Origin: a virus
DNA: 23,748 nucleotides
Reading direction: 5' to 3' (one strand)
Virus record (IMG/VR): IMGVR_UViG_3300040960_001307
Location: 1 to 23,748 of that record
The position numbers and the translations under genes are program-made. The notes beneath the pieces were generated by a model. That model was not told the origin of the DNA. It saw only the letters and a program-made list of their open reading frames with translations, and did no database searches. Below, piece by piece: positions 6,663 to 23,748 of this stretch; position 1 is the first letter of the stretch; each line of letters opens with the position of its first letter.

Positions 6663-7117
6663 TCCTCATGGGTGAACCATCCATTCTCCACCATGTACTC
6701 GTAGGAGCGAACGGTGGCGGTGCTGGGGATGATTTGACCGAACGTTATCTTCTCGCTCGTGGCGATGAATCCCTCGAGCATAGCCTTCTCATATTCGCTC
6801 ACCTCCGGGAAGGCAGCCACGAGGCGTGAGAGGTCCACCTCGGGAGAGCAGTAGATGACGAAGTCCGTGTCCACCTGAAGGGCGTATTGACCCTCGGTGG
6901 GGATGGTCTCGCTGAGTACTTCCCCGGTCTCAGGATCCAGCTCGATGACAGGCTGTGGGTTGTCGGGATGGGCGAGGACTTGGAATACCTTCCCGTTGGC
7001 TTGGTAGTCGAACTGCTTGGCTACGGGTGCCGTGACGTTGTACAGCTCCCGTGTGATGAGGTTGGCCCGCTCCTTGCTCGTGAGTTCTTCGGTGGGGAGG
7101 ATGATGAGAAATTCCAT
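6659..7117 (-). CDS. Hypothetical protein in tail block
   Basis: This protein has 152 residues and is acidic overall. The start ATG at 7117 overlaps the stop of the large tail protein as TGATG, and the stop overlaps the next gene as ATGA. It contains mixed alpha/beta sequence with an IELDPETGEVLSE hairpin-like segment near residue 58 and a helical C-terminus ending in WFTHEE. No signal peptide, membrane span or metal-binding pattern is visible. Because it directly follows the receptor-binding-type gene, a fibre chaperone or assembly role is conceivable, but I do not recognise a family. Confidence 0.7.
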   Translation of the reverse strand: MEFLIILPTEELTSKERANLITRELYNVTAPVAKQFDYQANGKVFQVLAHPDNPQPVIELDPETGEVLSETIPTEGQYALQVDTDFVIYCSPEVDLSRLVAAFPEVSEYEKAMLEGFIATSEKITFGQIIPSTATVRSYEYMVENGWFTHEE

Positions 7118-8943
7118 CAGTAGATGTTGTAGTAGTCGTTGATGTTCGTCTCGATGCCTGTGCGGTTGGTGCTTTGGTCAGAGTTGTAGTAGATGCACTC
7201 TTGGACATATCCGTAAAATGGAACTATGTTTGTTGCTTGCGTTCCTATTGAAATTTTCGTGTTTGCGGCCGCTACATTTGCGCTTGTTGTTAATGTGCCC
7301 CCATTTATCGCTGCAAAATCTCCCGCGTTGTCCGCTCCGAAGTAATGCAAGTTGAGTCCTTGTTCATTCCCGGCGTACACGGTTTGCGTTGACGAAGAAA
7401 GAATGCGCCATTCCGTTAAGGTAAAAAACACAAAGCATTCCGGAGTAAAAAACAACGCGCGGGTTGTGCTGCCGCCGCTAATGTTTCCTACTGCAAAATT
7501 TGTCGCTGTCCCCGTTGCGCTAACTGTGCCGCTGTTCAAATAATCGCCTGCAAAAAGCGCAGCGGGCAAGTTGTTGTCTTCGTCTAAAATTACTCCCGTA
7601 CTGCTGTCGCAAATCTTCGGCTGACTTCCAGTTGCCTCCTGCTCCGCATCATTCCCTCCCGGACCTTGGTCGTACCAAACTTTGACGAAGCCGTTGGTGC
7701 CTGCACAGAAAGCCTCCAGAGAAGCCGTGTCGAGGTTGCCCTGCCCATCGAAGTAGATGTCCAACTCGTCGTTGTTGGACTCCCTCCTGACACGCACCGC
7801 AGGCCCCGTATAGGCCGAGCGAAGGCGACGCAAGGAATAAGCCGCAGCAGCACCCTCGTAGTTGTCGAGAAGGTACGGGGTAGGCTTGGGGAAAACGTAG
7901 CGGCTGCGCTGGTCCATGATGAGCACTCTGCGGTCTGTGGAGTCCGCCACCCGCATCTTGGTGACAGGGAACGGGACGGGCTTGCTTGGCTTGGTGGCTT
8001 CCATCCCCACGGTGACCGTGGTAGCGTTGCTGCCCTCTACGAGGCGGAACTCGATGTCGTGGCCTTCATTGGTGGTAATGGAGAGCTTGTCGTCTACCCT
8101 GTATCCTTGGCCTGCGTCGGTGGCTTCAATCAGGACGAGCTTCCCGAGGGTGTCGAATTGGTACTTGAACTTCCCGCCCGAGCCTGTGCCTGTGAGGGTG
8201 GTCGCTGCTATCCCTCCCCCCGAGGCTGCCCCCGTATGGGTGTGGGTTCCGTTGCATATCCCCGGCACTTGGTTCTGTACTCGGCTGAAGGAATCCCAGC
8301 TCCTCGTGACGGCTTCGGTAGTGGTAGGGATGTACTCGGTGGCTTTGTCGGCTGCTTCGAGTTGTGCGTCTTGGATGTAAATAGTACCCACGCCAGTCAC
8401 AATCCTTGCGTAATAAACTGTGCCCGTGTTATTGGTTGTTACACTGCAACGATACCACCCACCACCAACGTCTGTAATATCCGCACTTATCACGTCACCA
8501 AAATCAGTACCTAATGAACCAGCAGCAGACAAATTAAAAACTTGACCATTGGTACCAGCGGATGTAAAAACATCCAAAGTAAATTGACTTAGTGTGCCTT
8601 GTTTGGCATATATCGAAAATGTTGAAACACCAACCTGACTGTAATCCTGATAAATTGAAAACGAGGTCGATGTGCTATTCAATAGCCAAGCATCATTTGT
8701 TCCATCGTATCCGTTTTGTCCGCTTGTTAAAGTTGCGCTATTTAATACCCACTTGGTATCAAACTGATTCGACTGGAGGATAAGATTTGTCCGTGGCACC
8801 ACGAGGGGGGCGGGGTATTCCTTCCCGACGGGGGATACCTCCACGGAGAAGTCGTTGTCCTCTCCTGCTGCGATGTATCCGTTGATGGTCTGTACGTCGG
8901 AGGTGTTGTTGCCCGTGAAGGCTTTGCGAAGTTTCCAGTTCAT
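7117..8943 (-). CDS. Receptor-binding-type tail protein with carbohydrate-binding modules
   Basis: This protein has 608 residues and a mosaic build. Residues 1-49 and about 213-342 form a beta domain shared with the 179-residue paralogue at 5610-6149. Between them, residues 50-212 form an inserted module beginning RTNLILQSNQFDTKW and ending QLEAADKATEYIPTTTEA. This is the RTNLL...QLE...YIPT pattern known from carbohydrate-binding modules of phage tail proteins. From about residue 368 (AYSLRRLRSAYTGPAVRVRR, then VWYDQGPGGNDAEQ) it resembles the lectin-like arabinofuranosidase-B-type domains found in phage tails, and it closes with GYVQECIYYNSDQSTNRTGI and NINDYYNIY. The role is probably surface glycan recognition. 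The inserted module and residues 435-585 are clearly more AT-rich than the rest, suggesting exchange by recombination. The start overlaps the previous stop as ATGA. Confidence 0.8.
   Translation of the reverse strand: MNWKLRKAFTGNNTSDVQTINGYIAAGEDNDFSVEVSPVGKEYPAPLVVPRTNLILQSNQFDTKWVLNSATLTSGQNGYDGTNDAWLLNSTSTSFSIYQDYSQVGVSTFSIYAKQGTLSQFTLDVFTSAGTNGQVFNLSAAGSLGTDFGDVISADITDVGGGWYRCSVTTNNTGTVYYARIVTGVGTIYIQDAQLEAADKATEYIPTTTEAVTRSWDSFSRVQNQVPGICNGTHTHTGAASGGGIAATTLTGTGSGGKFKYQFDTLGKLVLIEATDAGQGYRVDDKLSITTNEGHDIEFRLVEGSNATTVTVGMEATKPSKPVPFPVTKMRVADSTDRRVLIMDQRSRYVFPKPTPYLLDNYEGAAAAYSLRRLRSAYTGPAVRVRRESNNDELDIYFDGQGNLDTASLEAFCAGTNGFVKVWYDQGPGGNDAEQEATGSQPKICDSSTGVILDEDNNLPAALFAGDYLNSGTVSATGTATNFAVGNISGGSTTRALFFTPECFVFFTLTEWRILSSSTQTVYAGNEQGLNLHYFGADNAGDFAAINGGTLTTSANVAAANTKISIGTQATNIVPFYGYVQECIYYNSDQSTNRTGIETNINDYYNIY
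8307..8796. other. Inserted carbohydrate-binding-type module within the 608-residue tail gene
   Basis: This segment codes for residues 50-212 of the tail protein. It is absent from the otherwise alignable paralogue at 5610-6149. Most of it (about 8375-8795) is visibly richer in A and T and uses different codons from the flanks. The edges are estimated by eye to within roughly 10 codons. Confidence 0.65.
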
Positions 8944-18657: not shown

Positions 18658-18873
18658 CTACTTCTCGAAGAAGGAAAGGCACAGAGGGGTCACTCCGACC
18701 CCGCACAATACAATGCCCTCCCAAGATAGGCCAAATTCATGAATCTGCCACAAGGCCTCTATCACAATCGCACCCCCAAGGGTTCGCTTCGCACTCCACC
18801 GGCGTAGGTCTCCCTTCGTCTTGAAGATTTCCGTCACGTCGAGGCGTGAGACAAGGCCCAGCCACGGGTTCAT
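18658..18873 (-). CDS. Small membrane protein, last gene before terminator
   Basis: This protein has 71 residues from the ATG at 18873, overlapping the phosphoesterase stop as ATGA. The N-terminal half is basic (KTKGDLRRWSAKRTLGG). The C-terminal half has two hydrophobic stretches (GGAIVIEALWQIHEFGLSWE and GIVLCGVGVTPLCLSFF), which could be two membrane helices. It could be a holin or lysis-accessory protein, given the endolysin two genes upstream, but I recognise no family. Confidence 0.65.
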   Translation of the reverse strand: MNPWLGLVSRLDVTEIFKTKGDLRRWSAKRTLGGAIVIEALWQIHEFGLSWEGIVLCGVGVTPLCLSFFEK

Positions 18874-19715
18874 GTTGCCTCCCTGACTTCCCATATGTAG
18901 GTATCGTTGCGTTCCGTACATCGTGCCCACCACCCCCCGAGGCGTGGCGTGGCGAAGTTCTTCTCCGTAGCCCACCCCGCGTACCTGTCGCCCAGTTTCT
19001 TGTACGATCCCATCCTCAAGTGGTGGACCGTCCTCTGCTCAAGGCGGAAGTGGTGGTTCAGCCTGTCGATAGTAACGGGCAGATGCCACTTCTGGTGGTC
19101 GTGGCCTCGCAAGATGAAGTCCGCATCTGGGAAGTCCTTCTGGTCTATATCGGCCCCGAGGATGCCCTTGGAACGCTTCGCCCCACCTCCGTATCCGTGG
19201 TGGTAGTGAACATTGAATCTACGCTTCGAGGAGCCGTTCCTGTGCGTCGTAACAACCAGCCAGCCGGCATATCCTCCCACCTCGACATGGCCCCCGGCTG
19301 TGTTGATGATTTGTGCCACCCTGTCGATAGGACTGACCATCATTCGCTTCTCGATGTTCGTCTCGTGGTTGCCCTTGGAGATGAACTTGATGACGTCCGC
19401 ATATTTGGCGAGCTTCTCCCCTACGTCTTGGATAACCTCGTCGACATAGATGCACGACTTGTACTCGGGCCTCAGCTCGGAGTAGTTCCCGCGAGGGTCG
19501 AACCTTCCCTGCATAAGGTCGAACAAGTCCCCAAAAATAAAAACCCCCGCCCCCAGCTCTCGCGCTTCGTCGAAGTGTCTGTGGAGGAGGGAGCGGTCGC
19601 ACTTCATCGCGTCGTAGTGGATGTCAGAGATGAAGAGGAAGTCCTTGCTGGAGCCCCTGCTCGGGAGGTTCACGTCGACTTGGTGTACGGTGCGGCTCTT
19701 TCTTAGTAGGTCCAT
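18870..19715 (-). CDS. Calcineurin-like metallophosphoesterase
   Basis: This protein has 281 residues from the ATG at 19715, which lies 13 bases inside the endolysin gene. The five dimetal motifs are present in order: DIH (31-33), GDLFD (62-66), GNHE (115-118), a His pair in VHYHHGYGG (about 170-173) and GHDH (204-207). The protein is therefore predicted to be a metal-dependent phosphoesterase. Related enzymes include DNA nucleases, cyclic-nucleotide or dinucleotide phosphodiesterases and protein phosphatases; I cannot choose among them from sequence. It is placed in the lysis block rather than with DNA metabolism, which is unusual. A counter-defence role against nucleotide signals is possible but speculative. 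Confidence 0.85.
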   Translation of the reverse strand: MDLLRKSRTVHQVDVNLPSRGSSKDFLFISDIHYDAMKCDRSLLHRHFDEARELGAGVFIFGDLFDLMQGRFDPRGNYSELRPEYKSCIYVDEVIQDVGEKLAKYADVIKFISKGNHETNIEKRMMVSPIDRVAQIINTAGGHVEVGGYAGWLVVTTHRNGSSKRRFNVHYHHGYGGGAKRSKGILGADIDQKDFPDADFILRGHDHQKWHLPVTIDRLNHHFRLEQRTVHHLRMGSYKKLGDRYAGWATEKNFATPRLGGWWARCTERNDTYIWEVREAT

Positions 19716-20059
19716 ATAACGTTGGGGTCTTTGTTTGGATCCATATCGACATGGATGTAGTCCTTTCCTATCCCAAAGCGATTGAAGCCAGCGTCCAAGA
19801 GGGCTTCCATCATGAGGAAACGCTTCCGGCTTGACACCACCTTGAGGTCGGCAGCCCACCCCAAGAGGTGAGAACTGCGGGGACTCCCATTTACGGCCTT
19901 GTTGTGTTGCACCGTCCGCACCCCCGAGGTCACGATGAACGGGAAGCCTGCGATGTCACGGGCCACATCGAGAGCTTCGAGAACGTCGTGTTCCATGAGC
20001 TCCCCCGTTCCGGGTCTGTCGGGGCTGTCGAATTCGCTGAGCTTGAAGTATTTGTACAT
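19703..20059 (-). CDS. Peptidase M15-type endolysin
   Basis: This protein has 118 residues from the ATG at 20059, overlapping the previous stop as TGATG. It has the M15A peptidase zinc motif SxHxxGxAxD (residues 62-71, SSHLLGWAAD, ligands His 64 and Asp 71) and the third ligand His 103 in KDYIHVDMD. The substrate-site segment FIVTSGVRTVQHNKAV is also present. The length is that of a single catalytic domain with no wall-binding domain or signal peptide, so it needs a holin. Family knowledge says it cleaves peptide bonds in peptidoglycan stem peptides. It follows the small membrane/coiled-coil gene at 20059-20262. Confidence 0.88.
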   Translation of the reverse strand: MYKYFKLSEFDSPDRPGTGELMEHDVLEALDVARDIAGFPFIVTSGVRTVQHNKAVNGSPRSSHLLGWAADLKVVSSRKRFLMMEALLDAGFNRFGIGKDYIHVDMDPNKDPNVIWTY

Positions 20060-20262
20060 CAGATGCCCTTCTTTGCCAGCAATATCTTCAATTCGTGAAT
20101 ACCCTCGACGCATTCTTTGAGCATTTGTTTCAACTCATTATGGTCACTCTCGAGGCGGTACACCCTCCCCTTGAGCTTGGCGATGTCGCTGTTCAAGTTT
20201 ACCCAGACCCCCAAGGCTACGAGGACAGAAGGTATGAGAGTTATCAAGATTTCGATGTTCAT
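20059..20262 (-). CDS. Small membrane/coiled-coil protein, holin- or spanin-like
   Basis: This protein has 67 residues from the ATG at 20262, overlapping the preceding stop as ATGA. An N-terminal hydrophobic helix (MNIEILITLIPSVLVALGVW) is followed by a heptad-type coiled coil (SDIAKLKGRVYRLESDHNEL, KQMLKECVEGIHELKILLAK). A single span with a soluble coiled coil, just before the endolysin, suggests a holin or spanin-like lysis component. The order (membrane first, coil second) differs from XhlA-type proteins. Confidence 0.7.
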   Translation of the reverse strand: MNIEILITLIPSVLVALGVWVNLNSDIAKLKGRVYRLESDHNELKQMLKECVEGIHELKILLAKKGI

Positions 20263-21473
20263 CGTAGGAGGGTTATATGTCCCGTCAGTAGATGCCCCGT
20301 CAGGGAATGGGCGTAGATGGTATAGGTATAGACCCCTTCGGCTGCTCCCTCCCCTGTCCAAGGCTCGTGGATATTGTAGGTATGCCAGACGAGCATCCCC
20401 CATCGGTTGAAGACAGACACCTCCCACGTCCCCCAGCACGAAGTATCGGTCTTCCACTTCCACCTGTCGTTGATTCCGTCGTCGTTAGGCGTGAAGGCAT
20501 TCGGGACGTAGATGTCGCAGCGGTAGCATTCCTCCTGTGTCTCGCAGTCCAAGTATTCCACGACGTGGTGTTGAATAGTATCCCACAGGAAAACAGGCTG
20601 AACCGAGAACACAGTATCAATGAAGGGGAGGTAGAGCGTATCTACCGAGGTCAGCCACAGCGTATCGGTCTCCGTGAGCCATAGCGTATCTGTAAGGATT
20701 TCCGTCAGGATCAAGGTATCCGTCTGCGTGAGGTAGAGGGTGTCCGTTTGGAATTCTGTCAGCCACAAGGTATCGGTCACCAGAAGCGTATCCAACAACG
20801 TCTCCGTAAGCCACAAGGTATCGAGCTGAGTGAGCCACAGCGTATCCGTAACGACAAGCGTATCGAGCTGCTGGACATACAGCGTGTCGGTCTCCGTCAC
20901 CACCACTGTATCGGTCTGGGTTACGTAGAGTGTGTCGTACTCCGTTTGTACGATGATGACATACTGCGGGAAGTACAAGGTATCATAATCGTACACCACG
21001 TCCACCACGTCGTAGCAGAAGCACTCTGTCACCCTGTTATTCCACGGAGTGGGGTCAGGATAGGGCGGGGTGTCGTTGGCTGCCGAGGGTCCGTTGGTCC
21101 ATCCGTAGGGGGAGTCCCATGTGTGGAGGGTCTGACTTCCGTCTATCTGCCAGATGACGAGCTCCACGCATACGCTGTCGCGGAGGTTCCACAGGTTTTG
21201 GAAGTTCGGGTTGAAGACATCCTCGAACTCGTGCGTCCACGTCTCCATCACCGAGAGGTTCGCAGGGAACGAAGCAAAGGCCCACCCTATGTGCCACACA
21301 TCAGAGAGCCCCGGAAGCCATGCCGTGTCCAGTCCCACAGCATGGATGCCCATCACTATCTGGTTAGCTTCTCCGCTTTCGCAGGTCACCGTCCATCCCG
21401 TCTCGCTTGTCGTGAGGCTGAGGTCTACCTGTCCCCAGATTTGAAGTGGAAGAAGAAGCAGGGCGAGTCTCAT
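20259..21473 (-). CDS. Secreted DTL-repeat protein with T9SS type B sorting domain
   Basis: This protein has 404 residues. It begins with a short signal peptide (MRLALLLLPLQIWGQ), then an unrecognised Trp-rich beta domain (about 16-158). About 16 short repeats of the type DTLxxTxx follow (164-288), then a Cys-containing connector (CETQEECYRC, 310-319). The C-terminal domain, 321-404, has YVPNAFTPNDDGINDRWKW, VSVFNRWGMLVW and GVYTYTIYAHSLTGH, with an ITLLR end. It matches the gliding-motility-associated CHU_C/type B sorting domain used by the type IX secretion system. The ATG at 21473 is the only possible start, because a stop lies 12 bases upstream in frame. Export to the host surface is the inferred fate; its role is unknown. 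It sits between head genes and the lysis genes. Confidence 0.8.
   Translation of the reverse strand: MRLALLLLPLQIWGQVDLSLTTSETGWTVTCESGEANQIVMGIHAVGLDTAWLPGLSDVWHIGWAFASFPANLSVMETWTHEFEDVFNPNFQNLWNLRDSVCVELVIWQIDGSQTLHTWDSPYGWTNGPSAANDTPPYPDPTPWNNRVTECFCYDVVDVVYDYDTLYFPQYVIIVQTEYDTLYVTQTDTVVVTETDTLYVQQLDTLVVTDTLWLTQLDTLWLTETLLDTLLVTDTLWLTEFQTDTLYLTQTDTLILTEILTDTLWLTETDTLWLTSVDTLYLPFIDTVFSVQPVFLWDTIQHHVVEYLDCETQEECYRCDIYVPNAFTPNDDGINDRWKWKTDTSCWGTWEVSVFNRWGMLVWHTYNIHEPWTGEGAAEGVYTYTIYAHSLTGHLLTGHITLLR
20610..20984. repeat. Tandem DTL-type repeats coding for residues 164-288
   Basis: On the minus strand the coding DNA repeats units of about 24 bases that encode DTLxxTxx, for example DTLWLTET and DTLYLTQT, with occasional two-residue insertions. 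The copies differ in sequence, mostly at third positions, so they are not recent exact duplications. It is not a CRISPR array: there are no identical repeats or unique spacers. Confidence 0.85.
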
Positions 21474-21516
21474 GGAGCCAGCGTTTCAGAAGTTGGATAT
21501 TGTCTTCTCGGGTCAT
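21364..21516 (-). CDS. Possible 50-residue overlapping gene
   Basis: The ATG at 21516 overlaps the previous stop as ATGA, the junction style used throughout this window, whereas the T9SS-type gene starts 39 bases after that stop. The frame reads MTREDNIQLLKRWLHETRPA and on to GDLRKRRS before TAA. The first 18 residues are protein-like and the rest is Arg/Ser-rich and may be noise. It overlaps the next gene by 110 bases, so it is a low-confidence call. Confidence 0.35.
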   Translation of the reverse strand: MTREDNIQLLKRWLHETRPASSSTSNLGTGRPQPHDKRDGMDGDLRKRRS

Positions 21517-22085
21517 CGGATGGTACGCAAGAGGCGGCGACCCAAGTCAGGGTCCACCCCATCGGCTCCTATCGAGATGGTCATCCCATTCTGATAGTAT
21601 GCGGTGTACTCGGGGATCATGTCAGCGTCCGTATTCGAGGTGTACTCGGGGAAGGAACTCGAGTTGAACATCAGATAGTCCACGAGGCGGGTGGTGTAGA
21701 ACTGTGCATTCTGCCGCGCGTTCTCGATTTCTCGGTGCAGGTCGTCGGGGCCGATGGCTGCCGTGTTCTCTGCCGTCCGAATCACCAGACCTCCGTTGTC
21801 CAATTTGACGTACAAATTAGGCAACATCTCCACCATAGCCCACCATACCGTCACCTTGCGGACGTAAGTGTCCAGAAGGGTCGCGTATGCGCCTGCAACG
21901 GTGCCGTCGTTTACGTCCTTCTTTAGCTTGTTCAGGAGGTCCGTCCCGAGGTACTGCTGGAGGTACTTGTCCTGAGCCAAGATGATAGCCGGAACCATGA
22001 CCGCATCCTCTACCCCTCCGTTGAGCTGGGTGATGCGCTTGATATAATCAGGGTTCACGAAGAGAATCTCTGCTTGTAGTGCCAT
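21513..22085 (-). CDS. Head-tail connector/adaptor-like protein
   Basis: This protein has 190 residues from the ATG at 22085, which overlaps the portal stop as TAATG; an in-frame ATG at 22130 would extend into the portal gene and was rejected. The sequence begins MALQAEILFVNPDYIKRITQ and has a helical VPAIILAQDKYLQQYLGTDL block and a TYVRKVTVWWAMVEMLPNLY helix. Its place directly after the portal and its helical N-terminus fit an adaptor protein that completes the head-tail joint. The assignment is by position and resemblance to small connector proteins of Bacteroidota phages. No catalytic motif is seen. Confidence 0.65.
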   Translation of the reverse strand: MALQAEILFVNPDYIKRITQLNGGVEDAVMVPAIILAQDKYLQQYLGTDLLNKLKKDVNDGTVAGAYATLLDTYVRKVTVWWAMVEMLPNLYVKLDNGGLVIRTAENTAAIGPDDLHREIENARQNAQFYTTRLVDYLMFNSSSFPEYTSNTDADMIPEYTAYYQNGMTISIGADGVDPDLGRRLLRTIR

Positions 22086-23748
22086 TATCGAGGGTTTAAG
22101 TAGCCGTGGTTGGGCATGGTTGAAGGCCATTGACTGACGCGAGGGTCATCATTCGGAGGAAGCGGGTTCTTGCGTCGCTCTTCTTCCGGTAGCTGTGAGA
22201 TAATTTGACGCGCTCGGTTTACGCTGATGCGTTGGTTGTTCTTCTTGAGATACGTCCTACGAATCCACCGATGGTGGCAGTTGGGTCCGCCTTTGAATAA
22301 TAGGATGTCATACGTATCAGTCCCGTTCGGGCCAAATCCGGGATTAACCGCACGAGCCGAAGCTCCTCCGAGTTGTGCGGGGTAATATGGTCCTACCAAA
22401 TCCTCCCTGCGATATACGCGGTTTGCACTCATCATCTTGCGACAGAACTCACGCTCGGGGCTTTTACTCCCATCGTAAGCATAGCGGACCTTGATGATGT
22501 CGTTGTCCATATTGGACTTCGCTTGAGGTTTGGAGGACGGCACAGATGCAAAGCTCCACAGCATATCGTGAGCAAGATCTGTGTCGGGATTGTAATCGCG
22601 CTCGTCGATGAGCTCCCATTCCTCATCCACCTCTTCTCCACGCTCAATAATCCAATCTGCCAAGTCCTCTCTGAGTTGGCATTCCTCCTTCGCTTGGATT
22701 TGGATGGTTGGAACCTCCTGCACCGTCACAAGGGATGAAGTACCCGCAGCGGATAGGATTTGTTGCACCGCGTCCTCTACGATTCTTTGGTAGGGCTTGA
22801 TGACTTGCCTGTCGAAGAGTTCCGAGGCGATTTCAAGCTCTTGCGTATTTCCAAGCTGTCCTGCCGTCTTGACGCCAAACATAGCCGAGCTAACAACGCG
22901 ATGGCCAACCATAATTTTGTCGGACACCTCGGTGCTGAGGAATTGGTATTGCTTGTCGGCATCGGAGAGGGGGAACGGCTCGAAATCGGGCTTTCTGTCG
23001 GGGGAATCCGAGTACGTCACGATGAACTTACCCGCATTGGTAGCCCCAGCGAGCTGACGTTCGATGTCGTTGCGAATCTTCCTACGCTCCTCACTCGCCG
23101 GCACCCCGTTCTTGAAGTGGATGGTGAAGGAAGGAGCGAGTCCGTTCTTGATATTGTTGATATGGTACTTGCCGATTTCCTTGTCGAGCTCGATGTAGTC
23201 GATACTTCCGATGTAGTCGGGCTTGGGGTAGTAGTAGGAACCGGGAGAGAACGGCTTGACGTAAAGGATTTGAGTGGGGTGCTCCAGCTTCATCTCGGGG
23301 TCGAAGGCATGGACCGGGACGGGTTCTTCGAACTTGTCCGACCAGTCCTTCGAATAATAATACCAGTGGCACTCCTCGTTCTCGTCGACCTCGCCTGAGC
23401 GTACGTTCTCAAAGGGGCAGTGGCGTACCTTGGAGATGGTGCTCCGGTCGATGGAATATACAATCTCAAGGGCGAAGCCTCCCTGAATCTTCAGGTCTAC
23501 GCAAGCCTTCCGGATTTCGTCGTCCAAGCCCCACTCCTCAATCTTCAATCGTGCGTCCAAGTCGTTGGCCTGCACCCCATCGCCAAAAATCATGTAGGCG
23601 ATAGAAGTACACAAGGCGTTATGTGTCGCGCTCGACTTGTAGAGGTCGATGAGGTACTGCGGGAAGAGGTTGTCGTCGCCATACTTCACCCACCCCTCAC
23701 GGCTGGGAATCTCCGCATAGGAGCGTTCTTCGTATTCTTTGAGCTTCA
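22085..23748 (-). CDS. Portal protein (5' end beyond window)
   Basis: The frame is open to the right edge with no ATG between 23689 and 23748; residues K-L-K-E-Y...GWVKYGDDN read straight in from outside, so a GTG at 23689 is not the true start. At least 553 residues are present. Typical portal blocks are KYGDDNLFPQYLIDLYKSSA, the VVSSAMFGVKTAGQLGNTQE region and the LFDRQVIKPYQRIVEDAVQQ helix. After about residue 390 (counted from the edge) comes an extra C-terminal domain with EFCRKMMSANRVYRREDL and LFKGGPNCHHRWIRRTYLKK. This Cys/His segment, GGxxCHHxWxRR, also occurs in phage head proteins and may bind metal. The protein forms the ring for DNA entry and works with the terminase. Confidence 0.88.
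   Translation of the reverse strand, partial: KLKEYEERSYAEIPSREGWVKYGDDNLFPQYLIDLYKSSATHNALCTSIAYMIFGDGVQANDLDARLKIEEWGLDDEIRKACVDLKIQGGFALEIVYSIDRSTISKVRHCPFENVRSGEVDENEECHWYYYSKDWSDKFEEPVPVHAFDPEMKLEHPTQILYVKPFSPGSYYYPKPDYIGSIDYIELDKEIGKYHINNIKNGLAPSFTIHFKNGVPASEERRKIRNDIERQLAGATNAGKFIVTYSDSPDRKPDFEPFPLSDADKQYQFLSTEVSDKIMVGHRVVSSAMFGVKTAGQLGNTQELEIASELFDRQVIKPYQRIVEDAVQQILSAAGTSSLVTVQEVPTIQIQAKEECQLREDLADWIIERGEEVDEEWELIDERDYNPDTDLAHDMLWSFASVPSSKPQAKSNMDNDIIKVRYAYDGSKSPEREFCRKMMSANRVYRREDLVGPYYPAQLGGASARAVNPGFGPNGTDTYDILLFKGGPNCHHRWIRRTYLKKNNQRISVNRARQIISQLPEEERRKNPLPPNDDPRVSQWPSTMPNHGYLNPR

Follow-up and report, generated by a model that had tools for sequence, protein, structure and literature searches.

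A predicted type B cargo of the type IX secretion system occupies a variable slot between the head and lysis genes of a marine Bacteroidota phage

Results

We found that a phage of marine Bacteroidota (the putative host group) has, between its head and lysis genes, a cargo slot of variable content, new here, and that the gene occupying it encodes a protein whose export by the host type IX secretion system (T9SS) is well supported by its sequence. The DNA analysed, referred to below as the window, comes from IMG/VR, where this 23,748-base record is listed as linear; it is probably a fragment of a phage genome (Table 1). Our preferred reading, to which we assign a probability of about one half, is that this is an accessory late phage gene with a T9SS-exported product that resides on the surface of the infected cell, where it likely masks or alters phage-binding structures and would limit adsorption.

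Table 1. Positions in the window of the cargo gene, the parts of its product and the surrounding genes.
Feature	Position	Strand	Basis
Type B T9SS cargo gene, 404 aa	20259..21473	-	ORF, domain matches and purifying selection
Predicted Sec signal peptide, residues 1-14, cleavage before Q15	21432..21473	-	Bacteroidetes Q-rule, by inspection
N domain, residues 15-158	21000..21431	-	homology with the corresponding domain of M43-cassette type B proteins
DT[LVI] repeat linker, residues 164-300	20574..20984	-	16 copies at intervals of 6-16 aa
Type B C-terminal sorting domain (TIGR04131 / CHU_C), residues 322-404	20262..20510	-	profile matches
Portal gene, runs off contig	22085..23746	-	phrog_33693, E 1.6e-84
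DUF6712 head-region gene, left border of the slot	21513..22085	-	PF20459, 76.8 bits
67-aa TM/coiled-coil holin-like gene, right border of the slot	20059..20262	-	weak phrog_1296, E 0.003
M15 peptidase endolysin	19703..20059	-	PF08291, 47.9 bits; phrog_894
Metallophosphoesterase, downstream of the lysis genes	18870..19715	-	PF00149
Putative micro-ORF (MTREDNIQLLKRWL...)	21364..21516	-	start and motif alike in nearly all relatives

Domain architecture and selection

An earlier note on this DNA had described the gene product as a type B surface protein with a signal peptide, a Trp-rich domain, about 16 DTL repeats and a sorting domain, and this architecture was borne out. The C-terminal domain scored 40.2 bits (hmmscan) and 42.9 bits (genome search) against TIGR04131, whose cut-off is 35, and 53.8 bits against PF13585 (CHU_C; cut-off 27), with the match lying at the extreme C terminus of the protein. 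Inspection of the N terminus (MRLALLLLPLQIWG/QVDL) placed a Q at position +1 after the predicted cleavage, in line with the Q-rule, a Bacteroidetes trait that is absent from related phyla (PMC5837995). The most hydrophobic 11-mer lies at residue 3, and a search for a lipobox or a second TM segment revealed neither, the single N-terminal hydrophobic segment ending before the Q. Both Q15 and the CHU_C domain were found in every aligned relative (23/23), and across the loci 108 of 117 distinct cargo ORFs carried a Q-rule signal peptide, the remainder being GTG starts or fragments.

The DT[LVI] motif was counted 16 times in the protein (13 of them DTL), whereas 20,000 shuffles of its sequence averaged 1.3 occurrences, with 8 at most. 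The repeat units differ in codons, indicating that the array is not a recent duplication and that it is maintained by selection on the protein; their number varies in two relatives (L002 and L003). The N domain (~145 aa), which is the domain previously described as Trp-rich, holds 10 of the protein's 24 tryptophans. Four C-terminal strands appeared in the AF2 model at a poor pLDDT of 35, and nothing usable was obtained as a fold for the whole protein. The protein had no match in PHROGs and none to a known anti-phage defence family in PADLOC.

dN/dS, computed for the window against its two closest relatives (three contigs), came to 0.13-0.17 for the gene overall, demonstrating that it is under purifying selection. 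The values were lowest in the N domain (0.05-0.09) and the C-terminal domain (0.04-0.08) and higher in the linker (0.18-0.33); thus, constraint acts on the N domain and the export end, with the spacer left to drift, a pattern that a stalk-borne surface protein would be expected to show.

Genomic context

On the minus strand the genes follow the order portal, DUF6712, cargo gene, holin-like gene, M15 endolysin and metallophosphoesterase, which agrees with the placement proposed earlier, on the same strand and between the head and lysis genes. The overlapping junctions that had also been proposed were found downstream, where ATGA occurs twice (with a 4-base overlap between the cargo and holin-like genes), but not upstream, where 39 nt separate the stop of the DUF6712 gene, its start codon having been picked by comparison with relatives, from the ATG of the cargo gene. 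A putative micro-ORF spans this gap, beginning in the ATGA that ends DUF6712 and extending into the cargo gene. Across the loci of the portal clade this micro-ORF encodes 23-55 aa with the pattern M[TS]R[KQE].NI..LK.WL and, in many of them, a K/P-rich tail, and several phages have its stop codon overlapping with the following gene's start.

No integrase match was detected in the window and 18 related records (19 in total, all of them fragments). No PorP/SprF-like gene adjoins the cargo gene, the next genes being the holin-like gene and the M15 endolysin; a PF11751 search for such genes gave no match in 15 records, and its positive control gave no match either. Elsewhere in the window (7117-8943, minus strand) lies a gene for a 608-aa protein that combines a phrog_5939 tail match with similarity, over one stretch, to an arabinofuranosidase model (PF09206, 37.7 bits).

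A variable cargo slot

Searching directly with the protein recovered two contigs, whose best-matching segments share 87-90% identity with it, and a search of cultured phages revealed no close relative of the protein. Through the portal, the search yielded 571 relatives, of which 80 were kept, the nearest cultured ones being the Nonlabens phages P12024S and P12024L (32%). Both borders of the slot were visible in 53 loci, two of which (L003 and L027) represent one contig. The slot was empty in 33 of these loci, and in the closest relatives with an empty slot 39 nt lie between DUF6712 and the holin-like gene. It held a signal-peptide M43 metalloprotease in 11/53 loci, a protease together with a type B protein in four, a type B gene alone in four and other genes in one; another 14 contigs, outside the 53, end within an M43 gene. 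The slot of sister phages thus also takes other signal-peptide proteins with sorting-like tails. In one portal-clade phage (L078, 12315-13003) it holds two holin-like genes that are also seen in the lineage defined by phrog_6681, which suggests that lysis genes have been exchanged between the two lineages.

The M43 proteases of the slot harbor a signal peptide, an HExGHxxxxxH motif, a PF05572 match of 54-70 bits and a dockerin-like region. Their tails scored 11-19 bits against TIGR04183, under its cut-off of 23, and so we name them type A-like only. A supposed M43 pseudogene (L057/L083) was dropped, as the contigs read as intact 612-aa proteases (L132/L133). Signal-peptide metalloproteases of the M43 family are widespread in several viral lineages (239 viral loci, including L109-L174), some forms being ~380 aa and devoid of the long C-terminal part. 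Separately, type B-like C-terminal domains were observed in LR745206.1 (at ~27.7 kb) and LR756502.1 (at ~418 and ~519 kb), which are uncultured phage genomes of ~635-642 kb.

Taken together, the scores above both cut-offs, the Q-rule signal peptide, the selection on the gene and the other occupants of the slot give good support to the export half of the earlier reading, while its surface role, in superinfection exclusion, gliding or adhesion, is carried forward here as a proposal. The variability of the slot and the pairing of a related type B protein with an M43 protease in other phages go beyond the earlier note.

A protease/type B cassette in several phage lineages

Using the second gene of the protease/type B cassette as a query, we recovered 24 viral contigs, and a protease scan added five. 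In all 29 cassette contigs the M43 gene lies directly upstream of the type B gene, with an ATGA overlap in the five junctions inspected, and in most phages of three lineages the cassette genes adjoin holin-like genes. Carriers of the cassette fall into at least three unrelated phage lineages, namely the window's own portal clade, a lineage that encodes an Amidase_2-type endolysin and shows no matching portal (L087, L088, L092-L094) and a lineage with a TerL of phrog_6681 (L096, L097, L102, L105, L107). The cassette N domains are 66-81% identical between lineages, whereas the window N domain is only 25% identical to the cassette N domain of its own portal clade, and so the cassette has most likely been transferred between phages. 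One contig (L103, 7968-9029) has its type B gene broken into two reading frames, while that of the near-identical L101 is intact.

The window itself has DUF6712 and no M43 protease directly upstream of its cargo gene, indicating that it carries a relative of the cassette's type B gene and not a cassette. Architecturally the two appear to be bridged by a 113-kb record (L164), in which a type B protein with a DTL/DTV linker adjoins an M43 gene; a TonB receptor is also found on this record, which may therefore be partly host DNA, and so we excluded it as evidence of a phage-only cassette. When L164 and L131 were included in the cassette profile, hhalign matched the window N domain with 95% probability (P 2.6e-8, 92 columns), compared to a weak 52% for the core cassette family alone, whose HMM by itself misses the window protein. 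Both N domains have in common the signatures GWA..FP, C....VWQI and YPD....N.

For the cassette N domain, structure prediction gave a model of fair confidence (pLDDT 76, pTM 0.76), mostly beta strands with one helix, and a PDB fold search returned no solved-structure match for it (nothing below E 0.04). In BFVD two viral proteins matched the profile model of the cassette N domain, A0A516LFN5 (E 7.6e-14, 61% identity) and A0A516LPX6 (E 2.2e-6, 23%). Scanning 84,980 species genomes of bacteria and archaea twice brought up no relative of this domain, though the patterns used were narrow and distant cellular relatives may exist.

Discussion

Type B domains are required for export by T9SS, and PorP/SprF-like shuttles handle them and fix their final location (PMC12618676, PMC9143113), the exported proteins being held by PorP-like proteins (PMC9143113). 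On our preferred reading, the cargo gene would be read together with the head and lysis genes, and its product would pass through Sec by its Q-rule signal peptide and be taken by its type B domain across the outer membrane via the host type IX system, whereupon a PorP/SprF-like shuttle of the host would hold it on the surface of the infected cell. The DT[LVI] linker would act as a spacer presenting the N domain, which would most likely bind or mask surface structures used by phages. Such masking would limit adsorption by competing phages or, alternatively, keep the phage's own progeny off the dying cell and its debris. In F. columnare, phage resistance arises via gld/spr mutations tied to T9SS (PMC9233685), indicating that, in at least one host, surface features that depend on T9SS have a bearing on adsorption.

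Some points count against this reading. The type B cargo of F. johnsoniae needs a cognate or closely related shuttle (PMC12618676), and as no PorP/SprF-like gene adjoins the phage gene, a host shuttle must accept its product; a porP/sprF-like gene directly downstream is common but not defining, given that 3 of 12 F. johnsoniae type B cargo proteins are orphans. The late position of the gene leaves little time for export, and since the N domain has no solved-structure match, binding is a guess.

Adsorption control is our first choice, followed by other surface roles. The protein may be exported and yet serve the host cell or virocell in adhesion, biofilm formation, nutrient capture or competition, alone or with the sister-type M43 protease, an unlikely reading in our view but the one that survives best beside masking. 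It draws on the known or predicted adhesins among the type B cargo of F. johnsoniae (PMC12618676), on the consistent pairing of M43 and type B genes in the cassette contigs (29/29) and on the T9SS-labelled endoglucanase and glycoside hydrolase genes of Cryophage (PMC7468147). Against it stand the 19 fragment records, whose lack of an integrase match gives no sign of long-lived lysogens, and the place of the gene beside the lysis genes, which points to the last minutes of infection.

The absence of the cargo gene from 33 sister phages that share its holin-like and M15 neighbours makes a role in lysis or in the virion less likely. A lysis aid, either an outer-membrane disrupting factor replacing spanins or a factor releasing virions from the envelope, would suit the ATGA overlap with the holin-like gene and the holin-like neighbours of the cassette genes in most phages of three lineages, but the protein has neither a lipobox nor a second TM segment, and the slot is otherwise occupied by proteases whose fold is unrelated; we thus consider this role improbable. 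The virion use that the earlier note had offered as an alternative, as a tail or head decoration with a chance CHU_C-like fold, appears more improbable still: the gene does come after the head genes, and Nonlabens phage P12024S has a tail-fibre-like gene between its portal and lysis genes, but the protein combines a signal peptide with a complete and strongly constrained type B domain, has no PHROGs structural match, and is dispensable in most sisters (slot empty in 33/53). Least of all do we credit a host gene picked up by chance and useless to the phage, as type B domains are indeed a bacterial trait but the gene is under purifying selection between three contigs, T9SS-type cargo fills the slot repeatedly and the species genomes scanned yielded no relative for the cassette N domain.

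Phage-borne T9SS cargo is already known from Cryophage (PMC7468147) and crAss-like phages (PMC6949934). Like the window, Cryophage has proteins with T9SS sorting domains, located in variable regions, for which its authors propose hijacking of the host system and superinfection exclusion; unlike in the window, its domains are of type A, on enzymes and a PA14 protein, and the part of the report at hand describes no defined head/lysis slot. BACON cluster 2 of the crAss-like phages likewise has ORFs with T9SS sorting domains near the phage head section, but they are BACON-associated and presented, in what is accessible of that paper, with neither M43 pairing nor slot analysis. Among cellular proteins, SprB and Fjoh_3952 of F. 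johnsoniae resemble the window protein in having a Sec signal peptide and a C-terminal TIGR04131 domain for T9SS export (PMC12618676, PMC9143113); type B cargo of that species usually lies beside a PorP/SprF-like shuttle gene, whereas the window gene lacks one and resides in a phage. Phages of Porphyromonas gingivalis encode Q-rule proteins (PMC10367356) that have the same Bacteroidetes type of signal peptide and are thought to reach the host envelope, but no T9SS sorting domain is reported for them. Our search of the open-access literature yielded no account of type B cargo located in a defined slot, nor of the M43/type B cassette and its spread across lineages.

The use of the type IX system by phages, described earlier as isolated cases in two papers, now looks like a recurrent strategy, comprising one defined slot, several interchangeable exported proteins and at least three phage lineages, and including a protein domain not found in the bacterial genomes searched. 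Tentatively, and with the odds somewhat against so broad a statement, Bacteroidota phages may possess a dedicated, horizontally exchanged slot next to their lysis genes for loading the infected cell with T9SS effectors (M43 and type B) that serve general adsorption control or progeny release. Filled and empty slots in close relatives offer a clean comparison for the benefit of exported cargo to a phage, and a natural type B cargo that would depend on host shuttles bears on the specificity of shuttle recognition. Phages thus seem to remodel the surface of the infected cell from one small genomic slot.
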